The translations under genes were made by a program, and so were the position numbers. Below are positions 58,940 through 61,703 of a DNA stretch of 64,000 nucleotides, piece by piece. Under the pieces are notes generated by a model. That model was not told where the DNA came from. It saw only the letters and a program-made list of their open reading frames with translations, and did no database searches. Position 1 is the stretch's first letter; every line of letters starts with the position of its first letter. Source of the DNA: Acanthochlamys bracteata (Eukaryota; Streptophyta; Magnoliopsida; Pandanales; Velloziaceae); assembly GCA_019914995.1 (NCBI GenBank), contig CM034137.1, forward strand, positions 6,041,155-6,105,154, read 5' to 3'.

Positions 58940-59768
58940 TCTTTAACAGTACTTATCAGTAGTTACTAATATTTCATTTAAATTTTATATTTTAGTAATT
59001 ATAATAATTTAAAATATTTTAAAAAGTAAAAATAACATAGGATTAATAAGTCGTAGAACTTTTATATATAATGTTTCATTTTTATAATAAATAAAGAAAT
59101 TAGTTCAAGCATGCATTACTGGTTTGTGACGGGCGTCTAATTAGAAGGAAGAGTTGCACATATGGTATCACCTAAAGGAAAAAACACATAAACTTAGGAA
59201 ACAAGAAGCATTCTTAAAGAGTGCGTTTTTTTTTTTTAAATGAGTTAAAAATAATTTTATAGTAAAAAAAAGTGACTTTCTAATGGATTCTTGGTTATTA
59301 TCTTCCCTAAGATCTACCCGGTAAGGTTTTACTTCCACGTGGTAACCAACTAAAGCAACAACGTCTAGAATGTTACAGAATGCAGCATCCCGCTATTCCT
59401 AGTGTAAAATGAACACGAAATCTATCTAATAAACCTGTAGAAGAAACAAAACAAAAGTATAATACTAGTTGTAGGAATCTGCATCCAACACTTGTTTGTC
59501 TAGGGTTTGCCAAAAATTAGTTCTACTTTAAATTTCTTGGAGCCATGGTGTTCGCGCCATCTGTTACCCACACGAGGATTTCACATTTGGAGTCTTCGTG
59601 GATGGCTTGTTCTACTAGTTCTATCAAAAAGGTCTCCACATCAGCTCCTAGAAAACATAAAAGGATTAATGTCAAACAAATCTGTTTATTATATCTCTTG
59701 GTTGGCTTTGGATATTTCGAATTTTCCACCTGAGGAATGGCATCCCGAGCAAGCTGCTTCGTGTAAGA
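58940..59768. other. region downstream of the kinase gene, no gene assigned
   Basis: About 59480-59765 has balanced composition and open frames on both strands, and probably includes the former 3' untranslated part of the kinase gene. Neither frame shows a known domain. Confidence 0.4.
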
Positions 59769-59773
59769 CGAAG

Positions 59774-60032
59774 GGCGTGTTTACCTAGAAGGTGGAAGTG
59801 GAGTTTTAGGGGAAGTGGAGTTTTTAGAAAATAAATTTAAAAAATAAAATAAAAAATAAAAAATATTTAATAAAAAATAAAATTTTATATTAATTATATA
59901 TTTTTAGTAAGTTTTAAATTTGAATTTTAAAAAAAATTTTATTGATAAAAAAATTTATTTTAATTTTTATAAGTATTTATATGAAATTTGAGTTTAAAGG
60001 AAGTGGAGTTTAGGAGTGTTGGTAAACACGCC
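59774..60032. mobile_element. MITE, 259 bp, inserted over the 3' end of the kinase CDS
   Basis: Inverted ends GGCGTGTTTACC and GGTAAACACGCC match perfectly. CGAAG flanks both sides (59769-59773 and 60033-60037); if the ends are taken as GGGCGTG, the duplication is GAA. The interior repeats GGAAGTGGAGTTTTA-type phrases and A/T runs. The kinase reading frame enters the element at 60032 and stops inside it at 59960. Confidence 0.88.
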
Positions 60033-61567
60033 CGAAGCAAAGCATGCCAGGTCAATCCAGCTAGCTCGAAGAACAGCAAAAAACAATATGTGCAGGAAAC
60101 CAAAAACAGGGATAACAGGTGTTTGACATAACGTGTAGATTTATTGTCATCATCTGAATATTGCTTTGCCTTTACATTGTAATGATAATTGTTGCAGAAA
60201 TTTTTACACAGACCGATGTTTTTACTTTCTAGTGTTGGTGAAACATCAATTGTAATATTGAATCCAATTCCAATAGAATTGTTGGTACTATCACTACTAC
60301 AGGAATATTGGAACGAAAACTCCTGTGTGTCTACTAGGTGCTCATTATCTGAAGGCGTGAACTCTACGCTGCTCTGCTGAATTGTTGTTGTTCTGCTACT
60401 GCTACTGTTACTGCTGCTGCCGCTGCCGCTACTACTGGAAACTAGAGCAACCATCGATGTCTCCTCGGAGACTACATTTTCATTGGCGATTATAATCGGA
60501 ATCCACGCTACTGATCCTTCAGAGTTCGCGATGCTGCTGCCGTTAGAAGATCTAACAGTTATCCACCCAGAGTTCTCCTCCCACGCCCATTCCATGAATT
60601 GATCAGAAGAGGCGTTGGCTTCTCCGGCGGCAAGCTGACCGATCCTTTCAAATGCATCATGAAAATCTTGAATGCATTCATCTTCTTCTTCATCCTCTGT
60701 CATTGAATCCCAGATGTCCTGATCAAGAACTGTCTTCGGTGAGACCCAATTCGGTAATTGTACAGAAGAAGAATAGTCGGCGTTGACGAAGGGATGCATC
60801 AGCAGCTGCTCTGCTGTCCACCTCTGTTTTGGGTCTCTCTTCAAACACTTGTCCAGGAAATCCTTCCCTTCCTCCGAAAGCCAGCAGGGAATCTCCGGCA
60901 CACTGTTGCCAAATGCAATCTCATGAACTGCTGCGATCGGATCACCAAAATCAGGCCAAGGAGATCGACCGGTTGCCATCTCAATTACCGTGCAGCCGAA
61001 CGCCCACATATCCGATTCAGCTCCTTGCATATCTCCTCTTGCCACTTCCGGCGCCATGTACAGCGGTGTGCCACGAACAGATTTATCCCACTGGTCATCG
61101 CAGACCCACTTTGCGCACCCAAAATCTCCGAGCATCGCGCGGCCGTCAGCGCCGATGAGCACGTTCCTTGCCTTCACGTCGCAGTGGACAAGACCGACAC
61201 CGTGTAGATACGCGAGACCGCGCAGCACATCCCTCGAACGAGATCGGATCAGAGATTTATCGCCCATGCCACTGCCAAACTTTCCTCGGACTTCGTCGGC
61301 GAGTGATCCACCAGGCGCGTACTCCATGAAGATATTGAACTCTCTGTAATCGGCAGTGGCTTCGAAGCCCAAATAAGAGACAACATAACGAGAGTTCAAA
61401 GAAGAAAGAATTCTTTGCTCCCGCTGAAGCAGAGTAGAATAAGAGAATCCAGCCGCCGATGACTTGACTGCGAATGGAAACGGAGAAGACGGCGATGTTG
61501 CGAGCCATACGGTCGCCGTAGACCCGTGTCCCAAAGCTCGAACTTTGCTCCACGATCCAACTGCCAT
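59960..61567 (-). CDS. MAPKKK17/18-like: MAPKKK17/18-like protein kinase, single exon, 535 residues
   Basis: A complete kinase domain spans about residues 6-265: glycine loop GHGSTATVW (13-21), AVK Lys35, catalytic HCDVKARN with Asp130 (HCD instead of HRD, as in this clade), DFG 148-150, TPLYMAPE to 174, and [13 protein letters not shown]. Intronless ABA-related MAPKKK17/18 of Arabidopsis are the closest match (LLMEYAP-, VHCDVKG-type motifs). They phosphorylate MKK3 in stress signalling (family knowledge). After it come an acidic segment ([20 protein letters not shown]), a Ser-rich tract and a hydrophobic stretch at about 483-511 ([20 protein letters not shown]) that could anchor it in a membrane. 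About the last 23 residues (from [11 protein letters not shown]) are encoded by an inserted MITE. It is much longer than the Arabidopsis proteins. Confidence 0.92.
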
Positions 61568-61690
61568 TCGTTATTGAGAAACGGAAAGATCAAAAGTTTC
61601 TCTCTCGTTTAACGTCTTTTGAGCGTTAGTTTGTTGGTTGCGTTTAGCATCGCTGGAGAGAATGAATGAAGAGAGAAAAAGGACCAAAGT

Positions 61691-61703
61691 CTTATATATA
61701 GGG
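61691..61703 (-). promoter_or_regulatory. TATA box of the kinase gene
   Basis: The minus strand reads CCCTATATATAAG about 125-135 bp upstream of the ATG, followed by an A/G-rich leader. A good match to plant TATA boxes at a normal distance. Confidence 0.6.

Follow-up and report, generated by a model that had tools for sequence, protein, structure and literature searches.

A MEKK-type protein kinase frame runs into a Tourist-like MITE and stops inside it. As judged from sequence, the MITE probably sits in a former 3'UTR and ends a run-on frame, with small functional consequence. Little effect on signalling is expected because the kinase domain and the conserved C-terminal region are intact. 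Since the replaced sequence carries no sign of mattering, the case looks ordinary. The window (the whole stretch of 64,000 nucleotides that was analysed) is C12:6041155-6105154 within a 195.5-Mb genome of 557 contigs, which is probably a plant's to judge by its size and genes.

The MITE at the end of the kinase frame

The kinase gene, the element and its coding contribution are located as follows.

59960-61567, minus strand: MEKK-type protein kinase, one uninterrupted frame of 535 codons and a stop by translation, with the ATG at 61567
59773-60033, no strand assigned: Tourist-like MITE of 261 bp, 80.1% A+T, with 39 other copies aligned
59773-59785, plus strand: terminal inverted repeat GGGCGTGTTTACC, 13 bp
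60021-60033, minus strand: second terminal inverted repeat, 13 bp, perfect reverse complement of GGGCGTGTTTACC
59770-59772, no strand assigned: left target-site duplication GAA, in the 3-bp register of the other copies
60034-60036, no strand assigned: right target-site duplication GAA, in the same register
59963-60031, minus strand: the 23 codons wholly within the MITE; the consensus of the 39 copies has this frame and stop too
59960-59962, minus strand: stop codon TAA inside the MITE, by translation; also in the family consensus
59672-59674, minus strand: TGA at which the frame would end if the site were empty, after 543 residues and not 535, with the MITE and one GAA removed

An earlier note on this DNA had the kinase frame entering the MITE at 60032 and ending at 59960, with the last 23 or so codons and the stop supplied by the element. 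As far as the DNA frame goes, translation confirms this: flank and MITE share the codon 60034-60032, and the 23 codons wholly inside the element lead to TAA 59962-59960. The note also had the flank staying open past the insertion, which is correct, although its estimate of about 25 codons to a TGA near 59680 becomes 31 codons to TGA 59674-59672 when the MITE and one GAA are taken out. At the C-terminus 24 residues stand in place of 32, with the shared codon in both counts.

The edges of the element are given by its relatives. Forty full-length copies were scored including the window's own, and the other 39 were fetched with 300-bp flanks on each side. Because 38 of these 39 retain the outer G as well as the outer C, and 36 have a 3-bp duplication beyond these bases, we place the element at 59773-60033. 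The MITE with perfect inverted ends described before is thus real, but it measures 261 bp instead of 259 and its ends 13 bp instead of 12. The flanking CGAAG copies do not hold as target duplication: a 5-bp register fits only 10/39 other copies against 36/39 for the 3-bp register, and what was read as CGAAG is GAA beside a terminal base of the element, C or G. The duplication is GAA, 3 bp.

The element fits a Tourist-like MITE of the PIF/Harbinger type, with its 3-bp duplication, inverted ends of at least 10 bp, short length, A+T-rich sequence and high copy number. For such MITEs a 3-bp TAA/TTA duplication is given in PMC10004981. The present family resembles those described there in being short, A+T-rich and high in copy number, with perfect inverted ends and a 3-bp duplication that is most commonly TAA or TTA (20/36). 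It differs in that 16/36 family duplications are of another kind and the window copy lies in GAA. Counts among the 36 are TAA 10, TTA 10, TTT 4, AAA 3, TTC 3 and GAA 2, with TAG, GTA, CAA and AAT once each.

The GGGCGTGTTTACC end occurs exactly 601 times (289 + 312) in the 195.5 Mb, against once for the reversed control. Aligned to the window copy, the other 39 copies are 95.8-97.7% identical; these are the most window-like among 1484 first-look candidates, and no age is taken from their divergence for this reason. The window copy differs from the family consensus at 8/261 sites and the 39 others differ by 1.46% on average. Six of these eight differences are plus-strand G-to-A changes, the pattern expected from methylated-cytosine decay on the opposite strand. 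Each of the six reading frames in the consensus meets its first stop within 24 codons, i.e. the element has no coding capacity. At least 151 DDE_Tnp_4 matches are found in the genome; among the 10 transposase loci fetched, none is an autonomous partner with GGGCGTGTTTACC-type ends (up to 3 mismatches, about 1.5 kb on each side).

Kinase identity, paralogues and the empty site

The comparison set consists of four paralogues from one genome. A7, on C7, is the homeologue of the window gene and shares its setting and direction; B12 is an inverted paralogue about 10 kb from the window gene on C12; and B7 is a paralogue on C7, inverted relative to A7. Both C12 and C7 thus carry a head-to-head pair, as segmental or whole-genome duplication would give. 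The proteins have four different ends, with lengths of 535 (window), 485 (A7), 483 (B7) and 458 residues (B12).

The kinase frame holds one Pkinase domain (residues 7-261, E 7.7e-50), and the catalytic motifs HCDVK and DFG are found at residues 128 and 148. The nearest solved structures by sequence are MAP3K5 and MAP3K2, among the best 60 of 250 hits. The MEKK signature is printed as G(T/S)PX(W/F)MAPEV in PMC7011567. At residue 166 the window kinase has a near-match with Y at the W/F position; the paralogues read GTPLFMAPEV (A7 and B12) and GTPLFMSPEV (B7). A wider form of the signature permits Y. With its short length, N-terminal kinase domain and single exon, the gene resembles the MAPKKK17/18 clade, of which it is a putative member. 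A study of Arabidopsis MAPKKK18 left the C-terminal region out of its simulations because the model score there was very low (PMC11020294). If the putative clade membership is right, that region would fit the loosely constrained tail of the window gene. A Ser/Gly-rich insert, encoded by a run of AGC/AGT-type triplets at about 60390-60440, is absent from the three paralogues.

The window gene (60780-61567) and its inverted neighbour (L021, C12:6112156-6113592) have the closest kinase domains of the four, with a dS of 0.43 against 0.59-0.70 for the other pairs. The C-terminal regions of the same two genes give 0.61. Close kinase domains without equally close C-terminal regions suggest that gene conversion may have acted between the two C12 copies.

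The empty site is seen in A7. This homeologue lacks the MITE, both flanks are common with the window and the aligned site is continuous without an insert; the downstream flanks match at 80%. The A7 stop is at C7:7435108-7435106 and the empty site at about 7435039, approximately 65 nt beyond it. A 12-nt word of the insertion site recurs in B12, about 106 nt downstream of the B12 stop, and this length was reached in 0/2000 shuffles. The four-way alignment, however, does not pair this word with the window site and B7 lacks it; as a consequence the 3'UTR origin of the target rests mainly on A7.

Downstream of the MITE, the window interval 59630-59772 has 81% identity to the C7 homeologue. This is higher than in the kinase tail and well above the approximately 58% predicted from synonymous sites. 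No Pfam match was found to it in two minus-strand frames, and its alignment contains indels, including ones of 1 and 2 bp, so that a coding role is unsupported. Rfam gives no match in 59000-61700 at E up to 1. The interval may be a conserved 3'UTR or regulatory element.

Reading the fused end

An open frame into the element does not by itself make a protein. The mRNA could be spliced or ended before 60033, leaving the MITE non-coding and the protein with another end, which we regard as unlikely. This reading draws on the other copies of the element. Four of the 39, judged with 300-bp flanks, have a flank that is open for at least 60 codons into the element (L027, L043, L059 and L060). Of the three pre-MITE parts compared with Pfam, those of L059 and L060 have no match, whereas that of L043 matches Usp (E 1.7e-06, profile positions 3-53 of 141). 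In L043 the flank has 92 open codons; its frame then passes into the MITE just as the kinase frame does and closes at the same stop. Beyond the MITE we find, by eye, more open stretches that resemble the remaining Usp protein, and the copy lies in what appears to be the first intron of a Usp gene (L074, C15:406576-410439). Most likely the L043 MITE is intronic, and its fused tail arises only because unspliced DNA was read. An open frame into the MITE alone is weak evidence, since L043 gives the same fused tail from an apparent intron.

In the kinase gene itself, an AATAAA at 60145 on the minus strand (also present in A7) would suit an earlier mRNA end, and an acceptor-like site ending at 60061, with a 72% pyrimidine tract, would suit splicing. 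An unspliced earlier end, however, would leave the mRNA without a stop codon, since the frame contains none ahead of the MITE. A simple count against the usual consensus gives the donors in the kinase tail before the MITE (60225, 60213 and 60175) no more than 3 of 6, and one inside the MITE at 59784 a score of 4. In addition, all three paralogue frames reach their own stops with no need for an intron. Splicing at the kinase tail is, on these sequence features, not favoured.

The earlier note went further and saw in this a clear transposon-driven remodelling of a signalling protein's C-terminus. We consider it decidedly improbable that a functional C-terminus was cut short and remade by the MITE, with effects on localisation or regulation of the kinase. 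Frame and stop are as first described, and the coding-like pattern does come near the element: in the kinase, the window gene and A7 give a dS of 0.607 and a dN/dS of 0.163, and the 35 codons up to residue 476 show differences of 13/3/13 over the codon positions with a dN/dS of 0.164. Over 60139-60259 identity to A7 is 75.5%, with differences of 13/3/11. Although the codons are few, and the same 35-codon tail gives 0.54 to 0.64 against the B copies with one pair saturated, the pattern against A7 looks coding-like up to residue 476, and the protein would therefore extend close to the MITE. The stretch that follows is different.

60037-60138, minus strand: pre-MITE tail, 57.8% identical to A7, which is in a different frame there
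60061-60063, minus strand: TAG that would stop the window gene if read in the A7 frame, 27 bp before the MITE

In these 102 nt the differences from A7 are spread as 10/13/20 over the codon positions. A dS of 0.607 predicts approximately 58% identity at neutral sites, so the observed identity is at about the neutral level, though it depends on an alignment that contains a long gap. Neither the 34 codons before the MITE nor the 31 replaced codons are conserved in frame with A7, and the B copies lack both. The MITE thus appears to interrupt no conserved C-terminus. What is borne out of the remodelling claim is the DNA frame and the different end without the MITE. Calling it a clear case exceeds the evidence, given four paralogues with different ends, a pre-MITE stretch at neutral level and an empty site in the 3'UTR of the homeologue.

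The frames of the window gene and A7 diverge between about 60145 and about 60110 through a net 1-nt difference; here CTGTTTTTGGTTT is present in both genes and read in different frames. In the alignment it is this upstream difference, and not the MITE, that takes the frame past TAG 60063-60061. A single net base decides whether the frame meets the MITE, and the stretch contains an AAT run. The base could be a rare allele or a sequence error, with the true stop at 60063-60061 before the element. This is very improbable: the locus is present once in the assembly, with no alternative version, and real divergence is likely because the stretch differs from A7 at many other bases as well. It is hardly credible that reading of the T-rich former 3'UTR created a hydrophobic segment resembling a tail anchor (residues 484-502), with the MITE supplying the last 23 residues of a membrane-tethered MAPKKK; the 19-residue hydropathy maximum after residue 300 is indeed highest in the window gene (2.10, against 1.66 in A7, 1.15 in B7 and 0.41 in B12), but this signal is weak because 125 of 1391 stop-free shuffles of the pre-MITE 102 nt also reach 2.10.

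Summarizing, we prefer a MITE in former 3'UTR that ends a run-on kinase frame. A high-copy Tourist-like MITE inserted, with GAA duplicated, just past the constrained part of a MEKK-type MAPKKK, a step seen in the sequence. Its target in the ancestral gene was probably 3'UTR, as the empty site beyond the A7 stop indicates. The net 1-nt frame difference takes the frame of the window gene beyond that end region into the element, where it stops at a TAA carried by the MITE family. Provided that the mRNA is unspliced there and reaches past 59960, the protein would end with 24 residues, 23 of them wholly MITE-coded. These would replace 32 residues that bear no sign of constraint: one unconstrained run-on tail for another.

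Comparable systems and meaning

It is already known that MITEs can bring stop codons into reading frames. The present case mainly serves as a caution, because one genome offers both a homeologue whose site is empty and another copy of the element that is likely intronic; they illustrate that a frame open into a transposon need not mean protein remodelling. Should transcripts confirm the fused end, it would add a further small instance of a protein end set by a transposon.

Copies of a high-copy element were also compared with insertion-free paralogues within one genome for the Stowaway MITE BRAMI-1 of Brassica rapa. There the element belongs to a different superfamily and 71/71 copies in genes are intronic (PMC3626606). 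Another comparable case is the Mariam insertion in exon 6 of the wild emmer wheat 5-formyltetrahydrofolate cyclo-ligase gene (PMC6824096). As in the window, a miniature element within a gene brings a stop codon (for Mariam at position 41 of its 307 nt) and a shortened and altered C-terminus, with 249 residues against 280 for Mariam. Mariam comes with a sequenced transcript, a known domain that is cut, no inverted ends and a 9-bp duplication, whereas the window case is known from DNA alone and no domain is touched. The FaSt MITE in apricot ParM-7/ParMDO is likewise an in-ORF MITE that brings a premature stop; it differs from the window case in its 9-bp duplications, a truncation at residue 111 and a loss of function linked to self-compatibility (PMC5853662). 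Mariam and FaSt are therefore comparable, and stronger, published cases (PMC6824096, PMC5853662).
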